Below are positions 2,428 through 59,577 of a stretch of 64,000 nt of DNA, in pieces. The stretch's first letter is position 1. Each line of letters opens with the position of its first letter. The notes under the pieces were generated by a model. It searched no databases and was not told the origin of the DNA. It saw only the letters and a program-made list of their open reading frames with translations. The position numbers and the translations under genes were made by a program. Origin of the DNA: Ulota crispa (taxonomy: Eukaryota; Streptophyta; Bryopsida; Orthotrichales; Orthotrichaceae); NCBI GenBank assembly GCA_963920765.1, contig OY987248.1:5676539-5740538 (forward strand). Reading direction: 5' to 3'.

Positions 2428-4710
2428 TGTAACTTGTATGTAACTTATGGCTCGATGATTGACAAGAACTTCCAACTTCTCAGTCACCTTATGATATGTT
2501 TTTATAAATTTTGGGCTTTGGATGGTCCAAAACTAGTTAAGTATCTGCATGGATGAGGTTTGAAAAACAATTGAAAATTAACAAAAGATGTAAGTTCATT
2601 TTTATTTGTCAAGTATAATACAATAATTGGGTCTTTTAATGAAGTCACGGTGCTTCCTGTTGACTCTCACAAGGATAATGCTTTTATATTTTATATTGTA
2701 TATTTGCAACTGTTCCTGCACTTGCTTGTGTGAGGGCGGATTTTCATGATGAGTTGAGGCCATCAAATCTTTGGGACCATTTGAAATTTCTGCTTCAAAG
2801 GACACAATCAAGTACTCTTTATAATAATGAGTATTTTAAAGCAAAGGGTGTTACTTTTATGTGGCAAGCAATTTATCCATTCACCTGCATTATGTATATC
2901 TATGATTCCATTTGTACAAAATCTAGGATACAAATGGATGAAAATTTTAAAGCTTTGTATTGGTGGAAAATGTCATATTGGCGTGCAACATTTTCTTTTA
3001 TTTGTTACATTGGCGAGTGACATTTTTTTAAGGCCAACCAAACTTTAGGCTATACCAATGGCTTAGATTCTTGATTCACAATGTACAATTCCATGAGTTG
3101 TGGATGGATTAATGTTACTATTGCTAACTACCACGACATCAACCATTCAATAAAAATCCAAAAGACAACAAGCCTGCGTGTGTTGAAGTCTCTACGCCTA
3201 TGAACATTACTAATGAGCTACCTTTGCAAAGGTAATTTAATGGCATTGTTCACAAATACTGTTCCTGAGAAACGTTAATATTCACAAATTGCCTAAAATA
3301 AGGCAACTTGACGGCCTTATTCAAGGTATTGTCACATATAGTTAAATTTGACATCATTACATCAGTATTAATCGTAAGTAGTGGCTGACATTGAGTTTAG
3401 TACGTACTTAACCTCTAAACGATTTGATCCATTTTGAAATGGTCAAACTTCATGTCTAAGTTAAATTTTGCTTTTTAAAGTGTGTTCAAACGAAAAAAAA
3501 CTATGTTGTTTATTGCTTAAAACTATGTATGATATATCACTGCAAGAAATTTCAATTTGTTTCATGAAAATTTTTAATTGTTATCATTTTCTCTTCAAAA
3601 AATGAACAAAAATAAGTTAAAATTGCAAAAAATCCAAATTACTTGAATTTTTTTCTAGAGGTACAAGCAGCTTGAAAGATTAGTGTGAAAAAATTTCAAT
3701 TGGTTATTTTATATTTTAGACCCAAAAAATCAAATTTGACTATCAAACCAAGTTTATTCTTATATTTAATTAATCTATAAAATTTTGATATATTTCGCTG
3801 GAAGGCACACTCCTTTTCTATATACGTTATTATTTTTCATAAATTTGATGGAAAATTCAGATTAATGTGATTTTCTAAAGCTAAATGTGGAAATAAAATC
3901 ATATCAATTAAAATATATATTAAAAAAACTGAAATTTCTATCATAAATGAATGGTAGAATGAGAAACATAGTTTCATAATTTAAGTTTAAAATGCATTTA
4001 AAGAGTAAAAAATATGAATGAAAAACACACCATATTGTGTTATTTGGATTTTAACACTTAGAGCTTTTAATGGCATTTATTCTTTCAATTTTTGACATTT
4101 TTCAAAAATAATTAAATGGAATAAAAAGAAAACTTGTTAAGCTTCATTTTCTTAGTTTGAATTAGGTACCAAAAATTGATATTTTGAAAGTTACAATGAG
4201 GGTTAACCAAAGTGCATCCACGGACTTTAAAGGATTTATAGCATTCTTTTGAATTTGCAAAAACAAACTCACTAAAAGAGTTTTCGAATGCCATGTGTTG
4301 TTTTTAGTAATTAAGCTTTGGGCTTCCCAAAGTTCCCTTAAGGCATTGGAGGATTTACTTGTAGTATTTCGTGCAAAATCTTCTACATCCAAGGGTTCAA
4401 TAATTCTCTAAAAAAAATGACACTAGTGTCCACAAATTCATCACCTCAAGGCATTGAGAGAGCATCTCCAAGTTTTGAAATTTCAAAAAAGTACCAAAAT
4501 TTAGATATCACAATTCAAGTTTTTAGTTTTCACTTTAAATTTTCCAAAGTTTTTTTGTAGCATATTTTAGAAAAAAAATGGATTTTGAGTTTCAAATTTC
4601 TATATGATATATCTCAGACAATGTTGATGGAAATATAGAGAATTGTGGATAGGATCCGAACATCAAAATTTGCAACCCCTTGTCACTCATCAATTTTAAG
4701 ATATTTTTCA

Positions 4711-5510: not shown

Positions 5511-5861
5511 TTAAATCAGGTTGTTAACATTTGTGAGTTAGTTGGTCACTCATGATTTTAAATATTTTAATTGATCACATGTTGTGATAAGATCACTACC
5601 ATAAAATTTGATTATATTGCATGAATATCCTATTGCCTAGGTTGGTACAATGGGTACATATACTTGTACGTCATAATGGGTATTCAAAAGTCCTAGAAAT
5701 AGAGAGACCCTCTATAGACTTTAGGATTTCGGGAATTAATTTCATCCCTTGTGCATGCTTTTTGTTAAGTTCTTACTTCCAGATTTGCAGACTTTCTAAC
5801 TAGTTACTACAACAATGAAAAAAAACATAGGCTTAAGGCTGTGTCATATCTTGTCATTTAA

Positions 5862-7355
5862 CCCCTAAAGGACCAAAGAGCCCAATATGGCCAAAGGGGT
5901 GTTTGGATATGTGAAGTATGGGTAGTTGCAAGAATGACCTGCCAATTTTATCTCAAACATCCTTAGTACTATGTAGTACTCTGAAGTACTATGAGCTTCT
6001 GAAATAATTTTTTTTAATAAAACAAAATACAAAAAATTTGTAAAGCACTTAGAATAGCATACTCATGAAAATTCAGACTTAGAAAATATTTATTCTAAAA
6101 GTTATGCACAAAACAAAATTGCCAACAAAAAGCCAATTTCTTTCTTGCTTTTTAGCAAATAGTATAAAAATTCACAAAAATAAAATAAAAATTGGCCATT
6201 TGAGAACCCATTAAACAAATTCACATGGTACTATTGCTTTGCTGAGGAATTTCTTCATATTTTGCCAATGAAGGGAGATAGGATGTTCTCTTTGAGAGAA
6301 TGTAGATGCCATGGAATTAATAATTTTGCAAAACCCTTCTACAAATGCTTGTAAGCATGCTCCATAAATAACATCCTTGATTTATAGCCCTAAAAAAGCT
6401 TTTTGGACCCAAATAAGTACTAAAAACCCCCAAAATGGCCAAGGTAGAGATCTATTTGGTGGCTGCTTAAAAATAGCAAAATCATTTTAAAAAACACCAA
6501 AAAATCATTGAATGTCAATAACTTGCATGTTCACATTAGTCTAAAAGGACAAGTCAATATGACTTCTTTTGCAAAAGTTACAAGCAAAAAACAAGCCACG
6601 GAAGGTGAAGGGTACAGAATGTAGTATAGGTCATTCTTGCAGTCACACGTATACAAAAGAAGCATTTTGAGCTCAAATTTTGGTCTGCCACTCAAGTCCA
6701 AATGGAGTTGTTAGTTCAAGAAAAATTTCTGATTGGCTTCTTGTTCCTTGAAGCGCCTCCTTTGCTCTAGATTCTACATGGAATATGGAAAATATTCTAT
6801 TTTTTCAACAATTAGGAGAAGAATGTCTTTGAGCAAACAAAGGGAGCGGCTTAGAGAGTGGATTGGATGGGTGCTCCCATGTCTTGTATTGTACAAGGGA
6901 GAAGTTTGGTGATGTGTCATTTTTTTTTCTTAATTTGGGCAAGGTTTTTATAGCTCTAAAGTTAGGAGCTAGTGGAATCTAGCTACTTTGAGTGACCATA
7001 TCTTTTGGAGTGTTTTGATTTGTGGAGTTTTTTTTTTCCATCAAGTATAGCAAGACACAATCTCATGGGAATAGCCATTATGTAAATCTTCTTTTTGAGA
7101 AAATATTACATGAAAGTCCAAAATCCATTTTTTGAACTGTTGCCCAAATTGGAAAAGATGAGATTCTCAATGGTGGGGATTTTGCAAATTTACTTGGATT
7201 TGAAATCAAATTGGTCTAAAACATTTGATTTATAGTTGGGTATAGAATGACTAGTTTAAATTATGTGATTACTTATTCAACTTTCCAAAAACTCACGAAA
7301 TGTGTTGAAAGTTTTATGTTGAAGGTACGCTGAATCTTAGGCAAGACGCTTAGGG
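5862..7355. mobile_element. Candidate TTAA element (1.5 kb), weak right end
   Basis: TTAA at 5858-5861 is followed by CCCCTAAAGGACCAA, a perfect family left end. The best right partner is CTTAGGG plus TTAA at 7356-7359, which matches for only about 6 bp. The left end is convincing and the pairing is tentative. A separate inverted repeat (5930-5941 against 6626-6645, core GCAAGAATGACCT) lies inside. Confidence 0.35.
5890..6660. repeat. Nested inverted repeat, possible TIR element
   Basis: The segment near 5895-5941 (GGGGTGTTTGGATATGTG..., ending TGCAAGAATGACCT) is partly inverted at 6626-6660 (AGGTCATTCTTGCA... followed by ACACGTATACAAAA). The ends are diffuse and no target duplication is clear. 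Confidence 0.3.
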
Positions 7356-7646
7356 TTAAATATTAAAATATGTTATGAAATGTGGCTTCAACCTCATAGT
7401 GTAAAGGTTTTATGGCCGCTTCAAAAATCAACCGATGAAAGTATCAGAAGCGTCAAGTTCTAAACCAGCCTCCAAAGTCTAAATCCATCTCTTTCATTGA
7501 CTACCTTAGTTTAGGTTTTCTATTAAGATTCATTTGGTTATTGTTTGCATTTGTAAATGCTGATTGTCGCTGGTCCCTAAAGCTAAACGCTTTAGAGCTA
7601 ATTTATTCTAGGGGAGTTGATGCCATCATCTCTTGAAACCATTTAA

Positions 7647-8566
7647 CCCCTAAAGGACTGAGACTTTTTTTCTGTTTTTTTCTGTTAAAGTCATTGATAG
7701 AGTGAGTAGAAAAGTAGGAAAATTTGATTTTTTTTAATATAGCTGTAGGATTTTGCTTTAGACTACGAGAGGAACTTGTGGGAAAAAATCAAGTCAATTT
7801 AGATGGAGAGGAGTGAGATATTTACATCTAAAGTGCACAAAAAAAAGTTTTTTTCCCTGCTGATCAGAAATTTCAAAAGTCTTTAACCACTCTTATATCA
7901 AATAAATTACTCTATGCAAAGTTGAGGTTTATTTTTCCCATGTAGGAGATCAAGTTAGTTATATGTGGGAGAATTTTCAAATCAATTGGAAATAAACAAC
8001 ACATGGGAAAAAAATAGTAAGTAAAAAGTATAGAATGAGTCAAAATACTAAATTGTTAAGAATTTAATTACTAACATGAAAAATGAAAATCTCAATGGCT
8101 ATAATGTTGCAATAAACAATCTACCTCTTTTGGTTTAATTTTTTTCCAAAATATTGAAAATTGAGTAAAATAAAGGACTTCAAAGTTTATTTTAGAGTAG
8201 AGAATTCCTAACTACCCACAAACAAAAACTCCTCATAACTTTCATCTCATTGATTGAAATTGAAAAATTCAAAGCTTCTCACCTATAACAAAAATCTAAA
8301 GAACCAATTTAAAAAATCAAAATTCAAAAAATGTAATTTTTAAAGAAATTTTTGGGCTGCCCAGGTGGGCAATCCTCCCCAAATTTCATAAAATCATGCA
8401 TAATTTCTTTGTCAAATGTCGAAATGAAGAAAAAATTAGATGCCCACATAGATCTTTGAATTCCCCACATACAATAAAAGTTTCAAAAAATTGCACAAAA
8501 TAATTTAGCCATAGTACATGCCCAAAACCCACTTGTCCCCCGAATGAACAAATAGTCCTTTAGGGG
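7647..8566. mobile_element. TTAA element B, piggyBac-like MITE (920 bp)
   Basis: TTAA (7643-7646) is followed by CCCCTAAAGGAC. The right end is GTCCTTTAGGGG followed by TTAA (8567-8570), so the 12-bp inverted repeat and 4-bp TTAA duplication are perfect. The interior is non-coding. It is homologous along its length to the elements at 8676-9584 and 20528-21436, in the same orientation. TTAA plus terminal CCC is the classic piggyBac signature; no transposase is present. Confidence 0.8.
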
Positions 8567-8675
8567 TTAAAATTTAAGAATCTTAGCCCACAAGTATCCA
8601 ACACTAACTTAGTGGAAACATGGTCTGCATAAACCGAGGATTAAGCTTAAGACGTACACCACGTATGGGTCTTAA

Positions 8676-9584
8676 CCCCTAAAGAGCAAGCAAAGTGTTC
8701 ACCAAAAACTCTTCAAAATTGCCATTTTTAGAGCATCAACCAAATTTAAAAACAAAAACATTTTTATGCATATGTGACTGTAGGATCTTGTAGAAGAATG
8801 GTTTTAAAAGATGTGGAAAAATTTCAGAGTTTTTCACAATGTGGATTGGAAGTTAGAATGGTTTGAATATTCAAAAAAGTCTCGTGGAAAATCAAGCAGC
8901 TACCCTTCTAAAGGTGAAATTCCTAAGGAAAAAGGGCCATGTGAGTGGTGCTTCTCTAAATTCCTTATTCCACCTAAGTAAAGTACATATCAAGAAAGTT
9001 TCAAATCATTTGGAGTTGTATAATATGTGGAAAAAAATTAGTAAGTAAAAAGAAGTAGAGAATGATTCAAAACACTAAATTGTTAAGAATTTAATTATGG
9101 AAATGAAAAATGCCAATCCCAATGGTCATAGTATTGTCATAAAAAATATTCATCCTTTGGTTTTGTTATCTTTCCAAAATGTTGAAAATTGAGTAAAGTA
9201 AAGACTTCAAAGTTTATTTTGGAGTAGAGAATTCATCACTGCCCGCAAACAAAAAATCCTCATAACTTTCATCTTGTTAATCCAAACGGAATGATTCAAA
9301 GCTTCCTACATTCACATAAATCTCCTAAACTATATTTAAAATGTTGTTTTTGAAAAAAAAAAAAAAAAAAAAAATCTGCCTAGGCTGCCCAACGAACATA
9401 AAAAACAACATAATAGACCATAACTTTTATTCATAATTCTAAATGTCATGAAACTTAGTGCATATGAAAAATAAACCTTGTCCCCACATCCTATTAAAAT
9501 TTCAGCCTAAAATATTAAAAACTCCAATCACATGTACCTGCCCAAAATCGCTATGTTTCTAAAAGGGGTCTGGTCCTGTAGAGG
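8676..9584. mobile_element. TTAA element D, piggyBac-like MITE (909 bp)
   Basis: TTAA at 8672-8675 precedes CCCCTAAAGAGC. The right end is GGTCCTGTAGAGG followed by TTAA at 9585-9588. The interior shares long blocks with elements B and C, such as the AAGTAGAGAATGA...CAAAACACTAAATTG region. It carries a poly-A run near 9355-9374. It lies only about 110 bp from element B. Confidence 0.75.
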
Positions 9585-9838
9585 TTAAGGCTTGGTCTAT
9601 GCAGACCATGTCTCTACTACTGTAGTGCAAACATGATCTCAACCACTAAGGGGCAATTCACATTACGTGACACTTTGCATTCCATATTGCAAATCCCATC
9701 TCAAAATAAGATTCAGCTTAGTCGGATTATTAAGGTAGAATAAAATTCCTAAAGAATGCCATGAGTATCATATGCAAAAAAAGATAGTGAAATATGGATT
9801 AAAATTTGGATCATAAAAATGGTTTATTCAAATTTTAA

Positions 9839-10593
9839 CCCTTGAGCGCCCTAGCGACCAGATTTTGGTCGCTTTGGATTTCAAAGGCGTGTTTGGGGCA
9901 CTGGATCTAATTTTTTGATCTTGCTATAAACTACAATTACAAAGGTATTTAAGTTGTTTATGTCAATGGAGTAATGGCAAGGATAGCCAAATGTTGTACA
10001 AGTGTTGCAAGAGATTTGATTGGGTGAAACACCATATGAGGCGTGGTAGCAAGCAATGTTTTACATGTTGCAATTGGTCAATATCCCATGCAAGCTTCCT
10101 TTTGTAAGCTTTGCCGTAGCAAGAAAGTTGTTGGCAAGGGTTCAAGCATTTTCTAGACCCTTATTATGGCAACGGTCAGCAATTGTGTTGGTCATTGTTT
10201 TCCGTGCAATAACGACTTGAAGCCCTAAATCTTAACTTAACAAAAAGTGCAATCTTCAATATTTTACAAGTGTGTGTATTCACATCTAATCTTGTTGCTC
10301 ACAAAACTTGAGATGAATCTGGGGCTTACAGAATTTTGTAAAAATCATCAAAATAGCAACTACCTACCAAAAAATGAGATTTTGTCATCACATGTTGTTT
10401 GATCAAATGTTATAGTCTCTCATCTCCCATGATCAATTGTTCCCAAAATTTGCAAACCATTTTTTAAGTAGGTGTTCCACTATTTTCAATGGTCAGTTTT
10501 TGTGGATCATCCAATTGACCAAAATATGATGCATCAAAATTGTTGATCTCCAAAAATCTTGCTTTTGGTGAATACAGCCTAGGCGCTCAGGGG
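9839..10593. mobile_element. TTAA element E, CGCTC-type terminus (755 bp)
   Basis: TTAA (9835-9838) is followed by CCCTTGAGCGCCCTAGC. The right end is GCCTAGGCGCTCAGGGG plus TTAA (10594-10597). The inverted repeat is about 13 bp with two mismatches. It keeps the TTAA/CCC rule but differs internally from element B, so it is a separate subfamily. No coding region is supported. Confidence 0.72.
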
Positions 10594-10597
10594 TTAA

Positions 10598-11252: not shown

Positions 11253-11256
11253 TTAA

Positions 11257-11624
11257 CCCTTGAAGGATTGACCCTGAACCCGTGGCCAACCCGAGGCTCA
11301 AACCAAGGAGAGTGCATTGTTCATGGGCAGTGAACAACCTATGGCCTGTGTACAAGAGAGATAATATTCTCCTCAAAAGAAGGAAAAGTCAATAGTGTAT
11401 CCCGCCCTCACAAAAAGGGCAGCATGAACCTTGTACATCTTTTTACAAATTGGTGTTTTAAAAAATATGGAGGCATTGAAAGCAATTGTTTTTGGCATAC
11501 AGTGATATGGCACATCTCTCTAACCACTTTCAAGAAAAAAAATTTGAAAAAAAATCTTTTTCCATCTTCTGGGAGTGTTTTCTGCATTGAAAGGACAATT
11601 TTCGTCCTCTTGGACGGTTAGGGG
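11257..11624. mobile_element. TTAA element F (368 bp), degenerate
   Basis: TTAA at 11253-11256 is followed by CCCTTGAAGGATTGACC. The right end is GTCCTCTTGGACGGTTAGGGG plus TTAA (11625-11628). Only the outer CCCYTRA and some GGA/TCC bases pair, so this is either an old copy or a different subfamily. Confidence 0.5.
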
Positions 11625-11628
11625 TTAA

Positions 11629-13445: not shown

Positions 13446-13449
13446 TTAA

Positions 13450-14379
13450 CCCTTTAATGACCATCAATCATTTGGGGGGGCACCTCAAATTTTCACTATA
13501 CGGTTTGCAAAACACATTTAAGGACAAAATTTGTGTTTCTAAAATTAGATTGGATCGGACATATCAAAGTTATAAATTTTGGCAACATGAATAAAATAAA
13601 ATAAAATTGATCTATTGGAATAATTTCACGTGAGGATTGTGAGAAGCTTGATGATCCAAAAAAAATTGTTGTGCAAAAACGTGAGACACTCTAACTAATC
13701 AGTGTCAATTGTGCAATTGAAACTTTTGATAGTGGTGAAATTTGTAGAGGCTATTGCCCCATTCTAGGTTACTACACTTCTAAAAAATACAAAATTTGAG
13801 TCAATCTGTGCATTTCACAACATGATTTGTGAAATTGAGCATTGGAAGAATACAAACATGGCCACACATATACGGTTGAATACAACATGCATGGAACAAG
13901 TTTCCACAAAATCCAATTGGTCAATATATATTGTCTACATTGGGTGTCATTTGAGGTACAAGGTCCCACATTTAGTATTGCAAACCTTTGGAGCCTAAAA
14001 TTTCATGGAACACATAATGTTGTACTTGAAATACGCCAAATGTAGAACTTCTAAACAAACCATGCATCTTTTGCACAACTACTAGAGAGTTAGCACGGAA
14101 TACTTTGGGTGCAATATGTGGGCTTTGGGGCCATGTCATGGTTGCACTAAATTAGAATTTCATTTGTTACACCCATATGAGATTCCTAGCTTCATATGTA
14201 AAACACGCTTAGCTTCCATGTTTCTTTATGCCTTGCTTTGAAATTTGTTCCAACAAGAGCACAAACTAAACCCCCAACTCCGTCACGTTATGTGTTTTTG
14301 CAAATTAAATAGAACAAAAATGACAAGAACCATAGAATACCAAAATCAACCCAAAAGTGGTCAACTGGGCACTAAAGGG
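13450..14379. mobile_element. TTAA element G (930 bp)
   Basis: TTAA (13446-13449) precedes CCCTTTAATGACCA. The right end is TGGGCACTAAAGGG followed by TTAA (14380-14383). The inverted repeat is 14 bp with two mismatches. The interior is non-coding and unlike element B. The two short open frames inside overlap on opposite strands and are not supported as genes. Confidence 0.72.
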
Positions 14380-14912
14380 TTAACAAAACTCACTTAAGAT
14401 ATAAATTGAGGTGTTTGGAATTTATAAGACAAATCAAATACTCATTTGGGCCAACTTCATTGGTTTTGCAATACCAAAACATGCTTTTCAAAAATTGCAA
14501 TAAAAATGTAAATTTTCACATTCTTTTGAAATTTTGAATTGGACTGAAAATTAATTTATTCAAAAAAAGTTTTGACTATCCTCAAACATTATTATTAAAT
14601 TAATGTATTTGGTGTTTGATGAAATCTAACAATGACTTGAAAGCCACAATTCAACCTTCCATTGTGGTAAACCCAACTCTTGAGCTTAGGGCCATTATTG
14701 ATATTGATATTTTTTAATTAAAAATTTATATAAATTTTAACATGTATTTCAAGTGCAAAGATCTTACATGAAGATTCAATTTTAGAAATTGAACTAGTGA
14801 GAGACAAAAATTGAAACATGTTGTAGCTCAAGTAGACCTTAGACTCCTAGTGGAAGAAAGACCTTAAATGAAGAATAAAGTGAGCAAAACTTCACTGTAA
14901 TTGGAACTTTAA

Positions 14913-15631
14913 CCCCTAAAGGACAAAAGTCCCCTTGGGGGACTTTCAAGATTTCAGGCATGTACTTATGGCTACACTACTTTGTGTAATTTTTTGAAAC
15001 TTTTTCGGAAGATGGGAATTCAAAGATCTATGTGGGCATCTAAATTTTACCTCATTCCAATATTTATTGAAGAAGTTCAAAATGAATATATGAGAATTTT
15101 AGTTTGGTGGGTAGCCCAAAAATTTCTTTAAAACTTGCATTTTTTAAAAATAAAAATTTGAGGTTAGTTCTTTAGACTAATGTATATGTAGGAAGCTTTG
15201 ACTCATTCAATTCTAATTGATGAGATGCAAGTTATGAGAAGTTTTAGTTTGCGGGTAGGTGTGGAGAATCTCAAAAACAATGCCTACACGCAAACTAAAA
15301 CTTCTCATAACTTTCATCTCATCAATTTGAATTGAATGATTCAAAGCTTTCCACATATATGTAAGTCTAAAGAACTAACCTCAAATTTTTATTTTTAAAA
15401 AATGAAAATTTTAAAAAAGTTTTTGGGCTGCCAACCAAACAAAAATTCTCATAAATTCATTTTTAACTTCCTCAATAAATATTGGAATGAGGTAAAATTT
15501 AGATGCCCACACAGATCTTTGAATTCCCCATCTCCCATAAAAGTTTCAAAAAATCACGCAAAGTAGTTTAGCCATAGGTAAGTGCCCGAAATCCCATTTG
15601 TCCTCAAAAAGGGGGCTTGGTCCTTTAGGGG
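14913..15631. mobile_element. TTAA element H, full-length foldback (719 bp)
   Basis: TTAA (14909-14912) precedes CCCCTAAAGGAC. The right end is GTCCTTTAGGGG followed by TTCA, a mutated TTAA. The left half (about 14913-15265) is an inverted copy of the right half (about 15280-15631). Each arm matches the right half of element B, so H looks like two right halves joined head to head. The transcript would be a long hairpin. Confidence 0.78.
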
Positions 15632-16280
15632 TTCATCATTTTTTTACAAAAGCCCAACCACTCACATAGTTTCATGTGATCATGTTGATCACATTTAGAT
15701 TTGGTTTGTTGCCAAATTTGGTTTTCACTAAAAATAGTCTCAATGGTAAGACTGCATATGAGAGCAGTAAAAAGGTTTAGGGGCTGATTTAGTGAGCTCC
15801 TACAAGTAAGGTATGTGCTCCCATAAGCAACATTGTTCCCATACCCGTCACCTACGATTGCACCCATTTTTGTTAATTGCTGTTCTTTTTTTTGTGGTGT
15901 GAGAAAACAACAGTTATAGGTGACAATTCTATCAAAATTAGATGACGGATCAGCTGGTGATATAGTCTGGTGACCGTGATATTTAAGTACAGTTGGGTAT
16001 TTTTCTACGTGGTTTAGGAGACGGTTTAATGTAATCTACTTGGTGGTTACTGGAAACAATTAAGGGGGCTAAACATGCAAGCTCTGACACTTATATTCTC
16101 ATCCCCCAAGAGATATGAGGTTCAATGTGACGGTTACAGGTGACAACGGCGCCATTTAATTGCACTTGGCATGACAAATCTTTTTGCCTCAAATTTTTAA
16201 TGCAAGCAAACTTGGTTACAAGATTTAAGTGAAAATGTGGGATCAAAGAATCAGTTTGAGGAGTGAAGGGTGTCCACGAG

Positions 16281-17471: not shown

Positions 17472-19589
17472 GTGGAGTTGGTAACACTTTCAAGGGCAGA
17501 TCCATCAACGCGTTGCATGCCTACGGCAAACAATAGCCCATCTCCTTCCACAAGTCGTTACCAATATTGCAAGCTGACGGGGAATTGGAATGACAAGCAA
17601 CTGAAATCAACATTGGCTGCAATTAACACTGGGTCTCCAGTGGCCACCGCTAGCCGAGTCTTTGGAATCCCAAACTCATCCCTTTGAGATCACATGGAGG
17701 GCAGGACTTTGCAACGCAAGAAGGGCCGTCAAGGAGTGCTTACAACAGAAGAAGAGATGTCACTAGTTAAGTGGATGCTGGAGATGCAATATCATGCCCA
17801 CCCCATCTCCATATTTGAATTGAAAATGAAAGTTGCAGAGATTACTCAAGAGGGGTGGACTCCCTTCAAGGATGGAATTCCAAGACAAAGTTGGCTCAAG
17901 TGGTTTCAAAATTGCCACCTCGAGTTAACCTTGAGATCTGCACAAGCACAGGAGGAAGAGCGTGCCAAAGGATTAAATCCTACCAGTGTCACTTCATTGT
18001 ACAAGACTCTGCAGGAAGCTTACAAAGCTCATGGATACCCTCTTAGCCACATATGGAATGCAGACAAATCTGGCGCACAAGCTGGGAAGAGTAGAGGCGG
18101 GAGTACGGTGCAAGTGTTTGCAAAATGAGGGTGCCAATCTGTCCATACAGTGGTACCTAGCAACAAAGAACATCTCTCTGTCCTTTGCTGCGTAAACGCT
18201 ATAGGTGATCATATTCCAAATTTCTATATTTTTAAGGGCAAATGCACATTAGAAAACTATATTGCCAAGTGTGAACCATTAGCTTGCATGGCCATGCAAC
18301 CTAAGGGTTGGATGACTAGTTGTCTCTTTCATGCATGGATTTCTTGTTTTGTTACCATAGTCAAACAAAGGTACAAAATCTCACCTAAAAGAAGACACTT
18401 GCTAATTTTAAACGGCAATGCTTCTCACGTGACATTAGAAGTAGTAGAAAAAGCTATGGAAGAGGGACTGGACATTATAACCCTCCCAAGTCACACTAGT
18501 CACACATTGCAATCACTGGATGTAAGTGTTTTCAAATCATTTAAGATAGAATTTTGTGCACAAAGAGATAGGTGGACTCTACAAAATAAAGGTAAAGGAG
18601 CCAAGAAGCAAGACCTAGCAAAGTGGATCTTCTTGGGGTTAAGAAAGGCTCTCACTGCACCAAAAATCATTAGAGGATTTTCAGCAACTGGCATTTGGCC
18701 TCTCGACTATGCTGCCATGGACAAGTATGTTACACCAAGCGCTTGCTATGTAGAAGCGGCAGACAATGACATGGACAAGCCAGAAGAAGAGGATCTTAGA
18801 TTAGCAGATCCTATAACAGCTGCAGGCCACTCTGACTTTGTATCCAAAACACATGGTATCTTCCACAGTCAGGATGACTTACCTGAGTCGCAGCATGCGC
18901 ATTCTAACTTGGTGGAATCTAAATCCACACAGCTACTGCAATTGCAGCTCTTGCAATTAAACTCGGGGTAGTCACAATCAAACCAGCCGCTGCAGACACA
19001 ACTCTTGCACCTAAAGCTCCCGCAGGTAAATATTGCATCTTTTCCATTGTGCCTACATTCATCACTGGAGCTACTGACAAACTCGATTCCGCTGATGTCT
19101 TCACCGTTGCTACAAGTACGGCATGCCTTGTCCTCCCACATCCAGGCAGAAGCTACAACACAATCGGAACGACCCCATCCAGCGTTGGCCATGGTCACGT
19201 ATGAGCAGCAATACTTTGTTGAAGGTTACGGAGACTCCAAATCTGAATCCGACAGCGCCACTGACAAAGAGGGTACAACTCTAGTAAGTATCCCAAATCT
19301 ATTTGCATTGCCACAGGTCGCACTCCCACCAAGGAGGAGAGGAAAATCTGAAGCTTCGTTGGTAAATTACTCAAAATCAATCCTGATGACTTCAAACAAA
19401 TACATCAAGGTGATGACCAATAAGGCAGCAAGGAAAAAAGAGGTGGCACGGGAACAAGAAGAAAGAGGATTTAGATGGAGGAAAAGAAAGTGCAACAACA
19501 GCAAGAGAAGGCTTGCAAGGAAGCTGAGAAGGTCCTATAGAGCATTCATGCTGAGAAGAAAAAAGTGGACCGTGAACGTGAGAAATTGA
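17472..19589 (+). pseudogene. Pogo/Tigger-like DDE transposase, nonsense-disrupted
   Basis: One plus-strand frame runs through 706 codons with three stops: TGA at 17685-17687, TGA at 18126-18128 and TAG at 18969-18971. The N-terminal part (WNDKQLKSTLAAINTG... ASRVFGIPNSSL) is a psq/HTH-type DNA-binding segment. Next comes a CENP-B-like HTH region, then the DDE_1 endonuclease core: NADKSGAQ (first Asp), LLILNGNASHVT where the second Asp and the following His are replaced by Asn, and LQSLDVSVFK (third Asp). A basic, Lys/Arg-rich tail follows (PPRRRGKSE...). It would cut and paste DNA at TA sites. With three stops and a lost catalytic Asp, it is almost certainly dead. Confidence 0.8.
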
Positions 19590-20527
19590 AGAAGGCAACG
19601 GAGCGAGGCCAAGGACGCGTCGATGGTGGATCTCGTAGGCGGAGAGGCAGCGCCAGAGTTGTGCAAGAGGCTGAAGATAATGCTGGCCTTGGGATTGGGA
19701 ACACCTAAAGCTGGCGCTAACGGCTACTTTTTTCTTGACAAGTCTTGGCTCATGAAACCGCATTGCAAACCCTTGCAACCAAACTTTATTGCCTTCAGCA
19801 CCGCGTTCCACTCCCTTAGTGCCAAGCATTCCAGCTCCTTACCACCGCAAACCGCTCTCTCACCACCGAGTTCAAAGACACATCAACGTGCACGCCAAGG
19901 AGCAACGCTTATCATGCACAACTTCCTCCTGGAATTAGGCGCAGGGAGGGAGATTTTCCAAAACATGCAATAGCTGCGGCCCCTCCACCATGTAGTGGCC
20001 TCTGTTCTCCATACTGCGATTATAGGACTTTAGAAGCTATATATAGACAAAGATGACATGGTTCATCAAAACCCTAAGCATGGTTATTTCCGGTATCTCT
20101 TGACGATTTCTGCTTTCCATGTCACTATTACAGCACCTCTTTCAATTTTTGTTGGGTGCAGTGAACGTGGTAATTACCTGTTTGAGACTCTTTTATAGAA
20201 CCGTCTACACACAGCCATGTGTGTTTGCTTACTTTATGCTTTGGGAAATTCTCACAGACACATGGTTCCATCAACAACTTTGCAATCACAGCCAAAATTT
20301 TTGATTACTTCTTCCTGATCTTGTAGTATTTTTCCGATGCTTCTTTGGTCAAGTTTGAACCTCCAAATCCCTTAGTTTGACGGATATGGGTGTACATACC
20401 TTACAATGTTGTGTTTAGGGTGGAGGAACCCGTTTGCTTGTGAGTAATTTGTCAAATATTGGGTCAAACTTGATCCCTAACTTAACACAAGGGGTCTAAC
20501 TAGATCCTTGACACAAAGGGGGCTTAA

Positions 20528-21436
20528 TCCCTAAAGGACCAAGCCTTTTTTTTGTGAAAATCATTGAAAAATGTCACTTTTAGGAAGTTTAGTAAAAAGG
20601 GATTTTATGTTTTGTTTTTGGGAAATCCAACTATAGGATCTTGCCCTAGACTAGAAGAGATACTTGTGGGAAAACATTAGCTCATTCCAAATGGAGAGGA
20701 GTGAGATATTTACATCTAAAGTGAATGCCCAAAAATTTTAGAAGCCTTTGACCACTCTTATAACAAAAAAATTGCTCTACCCAAAGTTGCACTTTATTTT
20801 CTCCATGTAGGAGATCAAGTTAGGTATGTATGGGAGAATTTTCAAATCAATTGGAACTACACAACACATGGGAAAAAAGTAGTAAGTAAAAAGAAGTAGA
20901 GAATGAGTCAAAACACTAAATTGTTAAGAATTTAATTCTTGAAATGAAAATTGCAAATCCCAATGGTTATAATGTTGTGATAAACAATCTACTTCCTTTG
21001 GTTTAATTTTTTTTCTAAAATATTGAAAATTGAGTAAAATAAAGGACTTCAAAGTTTATTTTAGAGTAGAGAATCTATAATTGCCCGCATACAAAAACTC
21101 CTCATAACTTTCATCTCATTGATTGAAATTGAACAATTCAAAGAGTTTTACTTATACAAAAATCTAAAGAACCAATTTCAAATTTTAATTTTAAAAAAAT
21201 GTGAATTTTAAAAAAGATTTTGGGCTGCCAGGACGGGTAGTCCTCCCCAAATTCTCAAAAATTCATGCATAACTTCTTTGTCAAATGTCAGAATGAAGAA
21301 AAGATTAGATGCCCGTGTAGGTCTTAGAATTCTCCACCTTCAATAAAAGTTTTAGAAAATCACAAAAAGTAGTTTAGCCATAGGTACATGCCCAAAGTCC
21401 AACTTGTCCCCCAAAGGGACAATGGTCCTTTAGTGG
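20528..21436. mobile_element. TTAA element C, piggyBac-like MITE (909 bp)
   Basis: TTAA (20524-20527) is followed by TCCCTAAAGGACC. The right end is GGTCCTTTAGTGG plus TTAA (21437-21440). It is clearly homologous to element B over nearly its full length, for example the CATGTAGGAGATCAAGTTAG block at about 20808. It sits about 120 bp outside the right end of the pogo element. Confidence 0.78.
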
Positions 21437-21740
21437 TTAATAGAGCAAGTTGGCACCATGGAACTAACAAGATCCTAGAAACAAGAGTGAGGCCACCCCA
21501 AAAAGTTCTAAGAGAGACTCGTAGTTTTCCATTTTTTTTTTTGAAAATAGACCTAATTGTCATCATTATGTTGTTGATAACATCTTTTTGCTTCACTTGT
21601 TGTGTATAACCAACTACAAAACACTACTTCAAAACTCTCTTTGTATGCGCACTCCACCTAGATACATCACTTACCAATTCCATTGGATTCTCTTTTTTTC
21701 TTGTTATATTACTGATATAGGTCCTACTATATAGTACCCT

Positions 21741-22267
21741 AAAGAAAGAGTACATAAGTCCCTCTTATGGGATTCAAAGAAGTTTGTACTATAAATAAAT
21801 TAGTTTTTGGCAAAAAAAATATATCATCATATTTAAAGATACAAACTTAATCACAATGTATGAGCCAAATAACAAAAACTAATTTCTATAAAGAAATATA
21901 TACTTTACTAAATTTGGTCATGATCACCCTAACATTAAAATTTCTATAGAAGGAAATTTGAAACTTTTTGAATAAGTTTGTTTGAAACAAAGATGTGCAT
22001 ATGGATGTCTCCTACATATCCATGCAATCAAATTTAAAAAATTCATCATCAATGTTTTTTGATCTACTTTCTTGTAAAACCATACTCTTGACACAAAACA
22101 ATTTACCAAAAATAGGATTTTGGTTTTTAGTAACTAAAATTTGGTGTGCTTGATCATGATTGCACAAGAATCACATACAAAAAAATCTAAAGATAAAATG
22201 CCAATTGTATTCTTTGTTATACCAACTTTTATGAATGCCATGAGAGGGACTTATGTACTCTTTCTTT
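21741..22267. mobile_element. TIR element, about 530 bp, unknown superfamily
   Basis: The left arm AAAGAAAGAGTACATAAGTC continues as CCTCTTATGG. The right arm is its inverse (CCATGAGAGGGACTTATGTA, then CTCTTTCTTT). Pairing extends about 45 bp. There is no open frame of note. Target duplication is not resolved. Confidence 0.6.
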
Positions 22268-22981: not shown

Positions 22982-25121
22982 CCGACTGGATGATATGGCG
23001 GGCCCAGTTTGAAGTCTCTGTCGACTGAGTCTGTCTGCAGGAATTTTACAGTTCGCACTGCCTTCCGCGGTTCCGCCTTCCCATCGATTCTCCTCCCATC
23101 AAAGCGGGAATCGTGGCACGGACACTGGGACCGGAATTGCGTCTCTGCCGACAGTGAAAAGGAACAATCGGAAATCTTTGTTGCTCTCAGACGTTTTCTC
23201 CGAGGTAGAAATCCAACAAGTTTAAGCCATGGCGAGACCGTCGATCGATCAAGTTCGGCCTTCCCGCCGCTAAGCTTAGTTGAGGCACTCGTCTTGCCTT
23301 CACAAAAACTTCTTCTTCTTGTTCTTAATGCGCGCTTGTTGCTGTTTAAGTCACGGTGATCGAGTCTGTATCCCGAAATCAAGCTTTCGTGTGTGCGTTT
23401 GGTTATGGCCTGTGAGTGAAATGGCGCCCGACACCAATTGCATGCGGCGGATTAGCTGCTTTGATTGTCGTTTGTGAATTCCACGGAGGAGAACGCTTGC
23501 GTGATGACTTTGTTGATGTTTATTGCTTTTTGCGGTGATCGAGTCTGTATCCCGTAATAAAGCTCTTTGGTGCGCGTTTGGATATGGCCTGTGAGTGAAA
23601 TGGCGCCCGACAGGAATTGCATGCGGTGGAGTAGCTGCTTTTGTGAATTCCTCGAGGGAGAACGCTTGAGTGACGACTTTGTTGATGTTTAATGCTTTTT
23701 GCTGTTAGAGTTAAGGTGATCGAGCAGTGCGATTGTCTGTATCCCGAAATCAAGCTCTTCGGTGCACGTTTGGTTATGGCTTGTGAGTGAAATGGCGCCC
23801 GACACCAATTGCATGAGGCGGACTAGCTGCTTTGATTTCCGTATGTGAATTCCACAGGGGAGAACGTTTGAGTAATGACTTTGTTGATCTTAGAATCTAA
23901 AAACCGACTGTCGGTAAAGCAGATGTCTCTTTCTTGATATATGCGAATTGGTTTGTGTGCTATTGTGCTTACTGCAATCCGTCGATGTGGTGTTATACCA
24001 GGTGAAGTCGCGGAATTGACCAATTGCGATAGGTAGCGGAAGAGTTCTGAAGCTTGTGTCTCTGTTTGTGCTTCGATATCCGAATTCTTAGATTGCAGCA
24101 GTGATCTTGGTGAGTGCGCGATCGTTGAATACAGAGTGCTGCTGGCGTGAGGTCTGAGGCGATTCGACGGGTGGTGACGCGAGCGACGCTGCTTGTGCTT
24201 CGCGACTAGTTGGAAAGCCGTGAATTGAAGTTGAGTTGAACTTCGAGATTAGGTGCGTCTGCAGCTATTTCTCCTTGCATTCTTCTCAGGTCTTGCAGTT
24301 CACGCCCTCTCTCCTAGGTTTTATCGAGTTTTTGTTTGGTTTGGAGATGATTCCTAGGTGTCTATTGCTTATCGCTTAGTTTGTTTAACTGCAACGCAGC
24401 TGCCAGAGCACGTCGCTTTGTAGTTGGTGGCTAGCGATGGTGAATCTTGTCGGCAGAGCGAATGCTCTGTAAAAGCTTCTGCAACGGCTCTAGCAAATGG
24501 AGTGACTGTTCGTACTTCCGGTTTTGCGAATGGTATTACTAAGAGTGTCAGTTGTTCTCCAGATTTTTGGTAGATTCAGTATTAGTATTGATTGATTAGT
24601 TCTTTAGTTTTGAGGTCGCTTGGAGATAGAACTTCGATATTAGTACTCTGCAAATTGTTACAATGTCAAGCACGGTGATAGGTGTCCTGGCTAGTTTGTA
24701 CCCTTGAGGACCCCGAGAAGGAAGCCCCGCATATTGTAGAATTGGACTAGATAGCTTGATGCTTTGAAGACACGGTCCCCGATCCAGGTTTTGGGGTGCT
24801 CTTCAAAGACTTTTATAAAGTTACAAATCCTAGTGAGTGAGTAGATGTTTTATTAAAATTGGAATTGCTCCTAATTTGTGTCCTGCCCCGCTTAGGATCT
24901 AATAAAAAAGTACGCAAAGGTCTCCAAGGGGTTGATCTCTTTGGCTTTTGGTTCTCATGAGTGTCCTTTATGTTCTGGAGAGGACATTGTTGCGTTTAGC
25001 TCCCTATGGAAAGCTGGTTCGGCCTTGATACTAGCCATGTCCTGGCATCCATCTCTAGGGCATCTTTTTAATGGTTTTCCTTGTTGGAATTCTTAGACAT
25101 GTGAGGAGAGCATCCTGTGAA
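22982..25121 (+). promoter_or_regulatory. Probable promoter and leader of the RNF213-like gene
   Basis: Base composition shifts from AT-rich repeat DNA to a more GC-rich stretch with CpG-rich blocks just left of the first RNF213-like exon. No protein family matches the open frames here. It includes three tandem 180-bp repeats and probably untranslated exons; the transcription start and leader introns cannot be placed from sequence alone. Confidence 0.5.
23355..23889. repeat. Three tandem copies of a 175-181-bp unit
   Basis: Copies begin at 23355, 23534 and 23715 with GGTGATCGAG. Each includes CTGTATCCCG, a GGCCTGTGAGTGAAATGGCG-type block, GCCCGACA, TAGCTGCTTT, GTGAATTCC and GACTTTGTTGAT. Copies differ by scattered changes and short indels. 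They lie about 1.2-1.8 kb upstream of the RNF213-like start codon. Confidence 0.88.
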
Positions 25122-51170: not shown

Positions 51171-51174
51171 TTAA

Positions 51175-51905
51175 CCCTTAAAGGACGGGCCTACAACCAT
51201 GGATTTCCTATGGAATTGCAATCAGCTCCTAGGAGTTATTTTGGAAATGTAATCATCATCAAAATTCAATATTATAATTTTAGTAGAAGAAAATATGTGT
51301 ATATGACATGTATAAAAAAATATTCATAAATTTTGGTGAAAATTTGAAATTATTGTAATTTTTTGAAGCAAATGCTAAAGAAATTCATGTTTAATTACAA
51401 AATGCATTCAATTATGCCATTTTTTATATTATAGTTGTGAATCACAATGAAGATTATCATGATGGAACTTTTCTTCCCATGTTGGTAAAATTAGAAAAAG
51501 TAAACATTCCATGGTAATAGGTATTCAACTTGTGATAGTAATAAAAGTTTAAAATCTTAAGTTTTTTTGAGAAACTTAAAGTAAGAGGAGAAACTAGATC
51601 AAGTAAACTTTCTATTGCTAGTTATGCTCAAACTAAAAACACATCATTTCAATAACTCACACTAAATTTTGGTTTAAAGATCCTCAAAATTCAAAATATA
51701 CTACACAGTGGTGTATCTTTACTACTCAATTGGCAAGTGGGACCCTTTTGTGAACATTGTGCATGTAAAAGCTTTCTATTTACATGCTCTAGATTGCATT
51801 ATTCTTATCCCAATAGAATTTTGGATGAGAAATAGTGATATTCCATTGTCACAGCAATATTCAATCATCTAAAAGCCACAAAATGGCTGCAACAAAGTTT
51901 AAGGG
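51175..51905. mobile_element. TTAA element I (731 bp)
   Basis: TTAA (51171-51174) is followed by CCCTTAAAGGACGGGCC. The right end TTTAAGGG precedes TTAA at 51906-51909, and the terminal repeat is 8 bp. The right TTAA is also the left TTAA of element J, so the two are abutting insertions. Confidence 0.6.
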
Positions 51906-51909
51906 TTAA

Positions 51910-53194
51910 CCCTAAACGTCCCATGGGGATAGTAGGTATGTTGTCATATAATTGGCATTTGCTACCAATAAGTAGTTTTAGTTTGGGACCTTAAATCATT
52001 CTACTAAAGTTACAAGGCTCCCGGGTGGATGACTTAATGCATTTTAGATTTCAAGTGCAGCATAATATAGAGAGGGGTTTATTCTTTTGAGGTAATAATT
52101 ATAAAAAAATTACAACTAAGAAAGAGTTCATTCAAATGGCAATATTGAGTATAAGTAATATAGGTAGGTTATAAACATGCCTCATTACTTTTTTTGCAAG
52201 TAATTAAGGGGCTAGTATCATGAGGTATCCTATGGTCTTACTGTATTTAATGTGGATATAGGGTATCCGATGTTCCATGGTGGGTATAGGGTATGTGATG
52301 TTCCAATGAGGGTGCTAGGTGTTAGGTGATGAAAAATGAGAGCAACAAATGTGGATGAATGGTTAGGGTATACTTCACTTTTGAGTGAGGGTTTTGTTGC
52401 TAGGTGTTAGAGTGCACGTTCTAGCTTTTGGGATTTTAGCTTATTTCATTTGGCTTGTGCGCAATAGGGTTTTCTTAATACATACATGTGAACAGAGTTC
52501 ATTCATATGCTTTGACTCTTAGTTTATTTACTCTTAAATTTTTTGGAGTGAAGAGGCATTTCTAATTGAATTGTATATTTCCATGAAGGATTTGATCTTT
52601 GTCTTGAAATTACTTATGAAAGCATAGTGCATTCATACCCTAACCCCTAAAGCCTAAATTGTCAAATTACCTAACAATTCAAAATTTTAAATTATAAAGA
52701 AGATAGCCTAAGAAAAAAAAATTGCTTAGCCCTTATAAGTAATTAAAGAGTGTCCTAAAATTGGCAATTTAACCCAATTATATAATTATAGAGACCCTTT
52801 TATTTGGCCCAAGGAACTAAATAGCCCCCCATAAATTACCTCCTTGCCGCACGTGAGGTACCCAACATACAAAGAGTGCTCCACCTGAAACAAGGCTCTC
52901 TGCAACATCACATCTTGACTTTTGTAATACCACATGTCCACTCTTTGTGATATCATTGCACAGATACAAATTAAAAACTCATTGAAATTTCTACTTTGCA
53001 TTCTATTTAACATATGAAAATCCTAATAAAATTCAAATGGTGAGTGTGTAGCGTAGCAAGTGCCAACTAATAGCTCATTAAAATTGTATTGATTTATGAT
53101 TTCAACTTCTTTATTGATCTCAAATGTAGTAAATGTACAAATCCATTCCAAATATTTTAAAAAAATCTTCTATTAAAGTGGCCATATTTAGGGG
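51910..53194. mobile_element. TTAA element J (1,285 bp)
   Basis: TTAA at 51906-51909 is followed by CCCTAAACGTCCCATGGGG. The right end is GGCCATATTTAGGGG followed by TTAA at 53195-53198. Both ends are homologous to the 232-bp element at 57713-57944: the left shares GGCATTTGCTACCAATAA-like sequence and the right shares CTCAAATGTAGTAAA and CATTCCAAATAT. No coding region is seen inside. Confidence 0.65.
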
Positions 53195-53513
53195 TTAATA
53201 TAATTGAGTATTTGTAAAATCACTTTGGAATTTAGAAATTTGGGGAGTTTTTATAAGGATTATAGTGGACCCATGCACCCTTCGGGCCCACTTCAAACCA
53301 GGATTTGGGGAGAAATTTTAGCTTCACCGGTTGAAATCCGGCAATGTCTAGTTTCAATTGGATTTTCACTAACATGGACCGGTTATTTTTTTGTAAAACT
53401 TCTAAATTTCTATTGTAAAAGTACTATATTTAGATTTATTTGAAAAATGGACCAATTTTTTAGTCAATGGTTTCAAGTTTCAACCGGGTTTTTTGCAATT
53501 TCAACCGGCTACC

Positions 53514-57708: not shown

Positions 57709-57712
57709 TTAA

Positions 57713-57944
57713 CTCTTAAAGGACTGCTTTGTGTATTACATAGTAAATACGCTGCTGTATAACTAGCATTTGCTACCAATAAAAAGTTTTAATTTGGGAT
57801 CTTGACTAGCTCACTAGAACCGCATTGATCTATATCCTAACTTCTTTGTTGATCTCAAATGTAGTAAAGGTGTGGATGCATTCCAAATATAAGAAAATAC
57901 TAAATATTGTATTGGCCGCAAAGGGCTGCTCGGTCCTTTAAGGG
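57713..57944. mobile_element. TTAA element L, short MITE (232 bp)
   Basis: TTAA (57709-57712) is followed by CTCTTAAAGGACTGC. The right end GCTCGGTCCTTTAAGGG precedes TTAA (57945-57948). The inverted repeat is about 12 bp with one mismatch. Both ends match those of element J, so L is an internal-deletion derivative of the same family. Confidence 0.8.
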
Positions 57945-57948
57945 TTAA

Positions 57949-58928: not shown

Positions 58929-58932
58929 TAAA

Positions 58933-59507
58933 CTCTTAAATAACCAAAAGACCCTTTGCGACCAGTACAATACGAGGTATTTTTCTTGTATTTGGAATGG
59001 ATACACACCTCTACTACATTTGAGACCAACAAAGAAGTTGGAGAATAGATCAATGTGGTTCTAGTGAGCTACTTGAGATCCCAAATTAAAATTTCTTATT
59101 GGTAGCAAATGACAATTATACGTCAACATATAAACTATAATGAAGCCTCTCTTATTGCATGGGAACAATGGAGAGTGTATTTGAATAGTATGCACACAAA
59201 GAGGTTCAAGTGCCATAAGTCATTTATTTCAACATGAGCATGATGTATAAATGGTAAGTGGCTCATCTAAAAAAAATAGTTATAGATGATTGCTTTCCAT
59301 TAACACTAATTGATAAAAAAAGGTACCAATGAGAGTACTTTGTATTTTGCAAGTGGTCCCATTGTGACAAAAATAACTTCATTTGTGGTTATTGCAACAC
59401 ACTTAATGCACATAGGGAGTATGCAGTTTAAGAAGTATAATTTATTATGCAAATAAGGAATTTACATTATGAGAGGTCTCACTACATGCCCTATGGTTGT
59501 ATAAGGG
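58933..59507. mobile_element. TTAA element M, inverted relative of J and L (575 bp)
   Basis: It begins CTCTTAAATAACC and ends ATAAGGG followed by TTAA (59508-59511). The left flank is TAAA rather than TTAA. The left end is the inverse of the right end of element L: both carry GACCCTTTGCGACC-like or GCCCTTTGCGGCC-like sequence and a TTGGAATG block. It is therefore a reversed copy of the J/L family. Confidence 0.65.
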
Positions 59508-59577
59508 TTAAACTCTTAAATTTTTGTGGCCGGTGAAATACCAGAACTTTTTCACCCTGGCCCTACATTGACGTATA

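Follow-up and report, generated by a model that had tools for sequence, protein, structure and literature searches.

The window, by which we mean the whole stretch of 64,000 nucleotides analysed here, holds a series of short repeats that are flanked by TTAA and carry CCC..GGG termini. The question raised by this locus is which transposon superfamily produced them. The piggyBac superfamily has been described chiefly in animals, fungi and algae and is, to our knowledge, regarded as almost missing from land plants. A first, sequence-only reading of the window had listed 11 such elements and proposed that they are piggyBac-like MITEs in a plant genome. The results presented below make it almost certain that the elements are non-autonomous piggyBac transposons, the 7643–8570 family being derived from parents of ~8 kb.

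All 11 elements of that list were inspected at both ends (Table 1). They are genuine repeats: TTAA stands at both ends in nine of the 11, and the end motif, with up to two mismatches allowed, occurs 22 times in the window versus a mean of 1.02 and a largest value of 5 in 100 shuffles. The perfect ends attributed to 7643–8570 were found as described, the inverted end being exact over 17 bp including TTAA, which leaves 13 bp beyond TTAA (CCCCTAAAGGACT). Inverted ends are shorter or mismatched in most of the other elements. A published description of piggyBac termini gives CC[C/T]T ends with inverted repeats of ~12–19 bp (PMC2872659); 7643–8570 agrees with this description and the others have shorter exact runs. 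Two kin groups are recognized. The first comprises 7643–8570, 20524–21440, 14909–15635 (whose arms match the right part of 7643–8570 at 75%) and part of 8672–9588, while the second, of partial relatedness, comprises 51906–53198, 57709–57948 and 58929–59511. The remaining window elements have no match to any other listed element at E 1e-5. The window elements are several families that have an end style in common, but not their interiors. A single TTAA common to two abutting elements is seen in the window at 51906 and also at L066:3079.

Table 1. Coordinates of the window elements and of the parent elements found elsewhere in the genome.
Feature	Position	Strand	Length	Description
Main MITE	7643..8570	+	928 bp incl. 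both TTAA	Studied by end reading, copy alignment and parent comparison
MITE related to 7643–8570	8672..9588	+		Both ends TTAA; inverted ends degraded; 80% identity in the centre
TTAA-flanked element	9835..10597	+		Ends CCCTTGAGCGCC / CCCCTGAGCGCC; the dispersed repeat around it occurs without interruption elsewhere
TTAA-flanked element	11253..11628	+		Ends CCCTTGAAGG / CCCCTAACCG
TTAA-flanked element	13446..14383	+		Ends CCCTTTAATGACC / CCCTTTAGTGCCC
Near-palindromic foldback element	14909..15635	no strand		Arms 85.7% identical; right end TTCA
Full-length sister of 7643–8570	20524..21440	+		80% identical over whole length
TTAA-flanked element	51171..51909	+		Right TTAA is the left TTAA of 51906–53198
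TTAA-flanked element	51906..53198	+		Abuts 51171–51909 on one common TTAA
TTAA-flanked element	57709..57948	+	240 bp	
Relative of 57709–57948	58929..59511	-		81% over 208 bp; left end eroded to TAAA
Exact left-type end	5858..5871	+		TTAACCCCTAAAGG; absent from the first list
Parent e38	C8:11097229-11105483		8,255 bp	Starts/ends TTAACCCCTAAA, encloses PF13843
Parent e25	C5:24506226-24515054		8,829 bp	Starts/ends TTAACCCCTAAA, encloses PF13843
Parent e26	C9:12440860-12449389		8,530 bp	Starts/ends TTAACCCCTAAA, encloses PF13843
Parent e11	C7:11814404-11822436		8,033 bp	Starts/ends TTAACCCCTAAA, encloses PF13843

The boundaries of the 7643–8570 family were defined with its copies elsewhere in the genome. 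The family has at least 41 matches (40 candidates scored of 9,606), and 28 copies were aligned: L001–L008, where L001 is the window copy and L007 and L008 do not differ in the element or its right flank, plus 20 of the 33 remaining matches. The 13 matches left out of the alignment are eight that begin at or beyond query position 57, three that stop a few bases short or begin late, and two complete ones. TTAA is found at the left end in 21 of the 28 copies, at the right end in 21 and at both in 16, fractions that do not stand for the whole family since the 20 added copies were chosen mainly for matches reaching at or near both ends. Conservation ends at TTAA, the columns -1 and +1 carrying 0.04 bits each; among the 28 flank columns, column -10 reaches 0.64 bits and the rest do not exceed 0.29. 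The copies diverge by 3.1–7.2% from their majority sequence, and the burst that produced the family was therefore not very recent. Seven among the 41 listed copies match solely from position 57–63 onward (e.g., C3:5991999 and C1:22225831), and the parent e25 likewise matches the MITE from position 58, as would be expected of a subfamily in which the outer ~57 bp at this end differ.

The state of the target before insertion was read from empty sites, which are here paralogous copies, in the same genome, of the repeats that were invaded. The joined flanks of L003 (a copy of the 7643–8570 family), 20524–21440 and 9835–10597 were searched against the genome. L003 is inserted in a dispersed repeat, and its junction is crossed without the insert in 38 of 42 rows at 77–85% identity; the other four rows are its own flanks (two) and short fragments (two). 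The best 10 of the 38 empty junctions were fetched and read TTAA in eight cases, TTAC in one and TTCA in one. The expectation of a single TTAA at empty sites is borne out for L003, in one relative of 20524–21440 and in none of 9835–10597. For 20524–21440, six of 40 rows cross the junction (221–224), when spanning is counted from at most 200 to at least 250, and the four relatives fetched read TTAA once and otherwise CTAA, CTGA and TTGA, with gaps of 1–3 bases adjoining the junction. For 9835–10597, 27 of 40 rows cross the junction by the same rule. None of the seven empty copies inspected (six fetched and L056) has TTAA: five read TTGA, one TGGA and one TGTA, and all seven align gap-free at the junction. 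The host repeat thus usually carries TTGA, and the copy that was invaded presumably had TTAA. A local duplicate of the left flank of L006 also continues from TTAA into ordinary sequence. On these data TTAA is the target and is duplicated on insertion, and it is single at most of the L003 empty sites read.

These data bear on the possibility that the repeats are Tourist-like MITEs of the PIF/Harbinger superfamily, whose target would have been misread as TTAA. Such MITEs are common in plants. A review describes them as duplicating a 3-bp TAA or TTA (PMC10004981). A 3-bp TWA duplication was not what was found here: the four bases TTAA stand on both sides and are single at empty sites, and the parents with matching termini, described below, carry a piggyBac domain. 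We consider the PIF/Harbinger origin extremely improbable, and a piggyBac origin is retained.

The ends are very abundant in the genome. Across 274.8 Mb, TTAACCCYTAAAGG has 18,588 exact occurrences (9,337 + 9,251), against three (1 + 2) for the reversed-pattern control, and the wider TTAACCCYTNANNGNCC has 31,318 (15,685 + 15,633) versus nine (4 + 5) for its control; these figures count ends rather than elements. The genome also contains piggyBac transposase sequences. A search with the PF13843 (DDE_Tnp_1_7) profile gave at least 120 match rows on contigs C1–C11, with a best score of 254.5 bits (116 of 528 candidates scored, with two rows for some loci), and no match in 14 control genomes. The motifs DE, DN and GVD..DQ recur over 31 aligned loci (30 domains and L041), where the 80% level is reached by DE and GVD..DQ, and within DN by N alone. 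The three catalytic aspartates of the superfamily fall in these motifs and are represented among the loci; in L041, N replaces the third D. The L041 open frame is similar to the solved transposases piggyBac (6x67, E 4.1e-20) and piggyBat (9c0f, E 5.8e-17), and the 16 relatives retrieved by the protein search all have PF13843. Stop-free matches account for 10 of the at least 120 rows, and the domain is near-complete in one alone, that of the L041 locus. A search for an intact transposase among L041, L108 and L109 gave no convincing case: L041 has a near-complete, stop-free frame with the N for D exchange, L108 is split into two frames, and the single long frame of L109 is damaged in its second motif. 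The L109 frame (C8:19570200-19573000, positions 751–2169; 472 aa) displays piggyBac motifs and seems to run through an unspliced stretch. Most of the transposases are broken, and they are diverse. According to the sequence-only reading, the window contains no transposase. This holds for piggyBac, as no PF13843 row falls there, but not for transposases in general, as a DDE_1 fragment (PF03184, 74.7 bits), which belongs to a different DNA transposon type, is found at 18129–18971.

Element ends were mostly not found within 1.5 kb of the transposase domains because the parents are 5–9 kb long; longer flanks succeeded. Four parents of 8.0–8.8 kb were delimited in this way (Table 1). They are the longer copies with the same ends and a DDE_Tnp_1_7 domain for which a search had been proposed on first reading. 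For a fifth locus, e34, the 3' end was found and the 5' end was not. In all four parents the domain is interrupted by stops or frame breaks, and it is preceded by ~4.9–6.0 kb. The MITE 7643–8570 matches their termini. Its positions 731 or 742 to 928 correspond to the first 189–200 bp of e38, e25 and e26 (77–84% identity), and its positions 1–348 to their last ~350 bp, the 3' terminus, at 73–81% over most of the length. Within the latter match 48–71 bases near the end in e38 and e26 and the outermost 57 in e25 are unaligned; the outermost 32 bp of the MITE are 87.5% identical to e38 and e26. The similarity to e11 covers ~52 bp of one end only at the threshold used, and the MITE centre (349–730) has no match in the parents. 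Since both termini are matched in three parents that carry PF13843, 7643–8570 is an internal-deletion derivative. A second parent family is formed by C3:13130262-13135288 (5,027 bp), with a piggyBac domain and ends TTAACCCCTCATCGCC and TTAACCCTTCATTGCC, and by a copy on C10 that is 90.5% identical end to end and has TTCA at its left end.

Two further features of the coding regions were recorded. As a candidate for the C-terminal cysteine-rich domain of the superfamily, a CxxC..C..C..H stretch is present in e11 and e26 and, in part, in e34; none was recognised in e25 or e38, and a zinc-ribbon sought in the e11 frame gave no Pfam match. An acidic-rich ..DSQE.. frame lies ~0.9–3.8 kb upstream of the catalytic domain in e38, e25, e26 and e11 (e.g., element positions 1455–2420 in e26 and 3566–4072 in e11), is 33–44% conserved between parents, and has no Pfam match when one such frame from each of the four parents is scanned. 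It may be a distant first exon or a second protein. Near-palindromic repeats of ~320–420 bp occur in or near transposase loci (L012:42-446, L022:3593-3976, L026:3803-4125); the L026 repeat also matches the window, where 21797–22266 was recorded with this set.

Duplication of TTAA also occurs outside piggyBac, which leaves room for another TTAA-targeting superfamily, Kolobok or Sola1, that would resemble piggyBac at the ends only. This idea is largely refuted by the PF13843-bearing parents, whose ends are those of the MITEs and whose termini are homologous to theirs. The upstream frame scanned in each of the four parents has no Pfam match, and no transposase of Kolobok or Sola1 type was found among the frames scanned. 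Such an origin has a minimal probability. The assignment to piggyBac made from the ends is upheld by the same-end parents with PF13843, the homologous termini and the single-TTAA empty sites. The short repeats are deletion derivatives of piggyBac, present in thousands together with decayed parents.

In the mechanism that we propose, the ~8 kb parents elsewhere in the genome would encode a piggyBac transposase able to recognise TTAA-CCCYTAAAGG ends (CCCCTAAAGG ends). An element would be cut out and pasted into a TTAA, leaving TTAA on each side. The 7643–8570 family arose from a parent by internal deletion, with ~350 bp of one terminus and ~200 bp of the other kept and the transposase gene lost. 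We infer that the transposase family of the parents moved the MITEs by cut-and-paste.

PiggyBac being best known outside land plants, an animal, fungal or algal contaminant in the plant assembly could be suspected as the source of the repeats. The plant nature of the host, asserted from the beginning, is well founded. The chlorophyll a/b-binding profile PF00504 gives 56 rows and matches one of 14 controls, a cyanobacterium. The best single-domain solved relatives of an LHCII protein from this genome are 8htu_U (455.9 bits) and 7xqp_a (455.5), followed by 8c29_G (436.3); two multi-domain 9vfj chains score 519.9 and 441.8 bits through several matched stretches. 7XQP is assigned to Physcomitrium patens (PMC12589708) and 8HTU is PpPSI-L (PMC10005731). 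The host is likely a moss, as judged from this one protein. PF13843 is found on C1–C11 and chlorophyll a/b-binding rows on nine of those contigs (C1–C9), and L066 has two TTAA elements within ~1.3 kb of an LHCII match. These observations make a contaminant source barely conceivable and place the piggyBac elements in the plant genome itself.

The elements have in common with the piggyBac superfamily (6x67, 9c0f) the TTAA target and its duplication, the CCC..GGG ends, a DDE_Tnp_1_7 domain with DE, DN and GVD..DQ and perhaps, in e11 and e26, a C-terminal Cys/His stretch. They differ from known piggyBac by the land-plant host, the very high end counts, the size of the parents (5.0 kb in one family and 8.0–8.8 kb in the other) and, in the larger ones, the long stretch before the domain. 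Tourist and Stowaway MITEs (PIF/Harbinger and Tc1/mariner, respectively) are short, non-coding and high-copy with inverted ends. The elements described here resemble them in all these traits, but have a TTAA target, other ends and another transposase in the parents. A further parallel is found in corals. The CMITEs related to AmiPB1 are TTAA-flanked MITEs with the termini of a piggyBac parent whose end is CCCTTTCCCGTCC, and they share with the present elements TTAA flanks, termini common with a parent and tandem arrays (PMC2872659). The CMITEs are animal elements of ~100 bp, whereas those reported here are plant elements of 240–1,293 bp that keep up to ~350 bp of a parental terminus.

The superfamily had been said to be hardly described in land plants. 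This agrees with the open literature searched, which yielded label-level mentions, namely 1,230 PiggyBac-labelled copies (0.00%) in a table of a fern genome paper (PMC6890710) and one 75-bp PiggyBac match in a table on feather-grass (PMC8319324). A review, however, sorts angiosperm MITEs by their ends into seven superfamilies, one of which is PiggyBac (PMC10004981). Among the titles and abstract beginnings listed by the searches of the open literature, none concerned piggyBac elements in bryophytes, although an earlier description may exist in subscription papers, other preprints or Repbase; a paper on the moss Niphotrichum was matched solely by the word “piggybacking”.

The superfamily is already known; the unusual point is how abundant and diverse it is in a land plant. 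We lean towards the view that in one land-plant (moss) lineage piggyBac diversified into many old lineages of transposase and grew into a leading DNA-transposon group, with more than 31,000 exact ends surviving, parents of unusual size and an acidic frame conserved well upstream of the catalytic domain (possibly second protein or distant first exon). PiggyBac is a major genome-engineering tool. The presence of many natural families in one plant genome demonstrates that plants can host and amplify piggyBac, and native plant ends and transposases become available for study. It is also a warning that plant repeat annotation centred on the usual superfamilies may leave piggyBac elements unclassified. 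The alternatives of an algal ancestor or a sideways arrival for piggyBac in plants become testable.

Two minor observations complete the description. The copy L006 (C4:23085340-23089269) is truncated at its right end, and its left-flank sequence stands on either side of it as direct repeats of 137 bp (97% identical), an arrangement that would fit local duplication during repair of a break at the end of the element. The window also has a region of long open frames at 25059–42921, whose likeness to RNF213-type proteins is no more than an impression. Two of the frames were scanned with Pfam, one giving no match and the other AAA domains.
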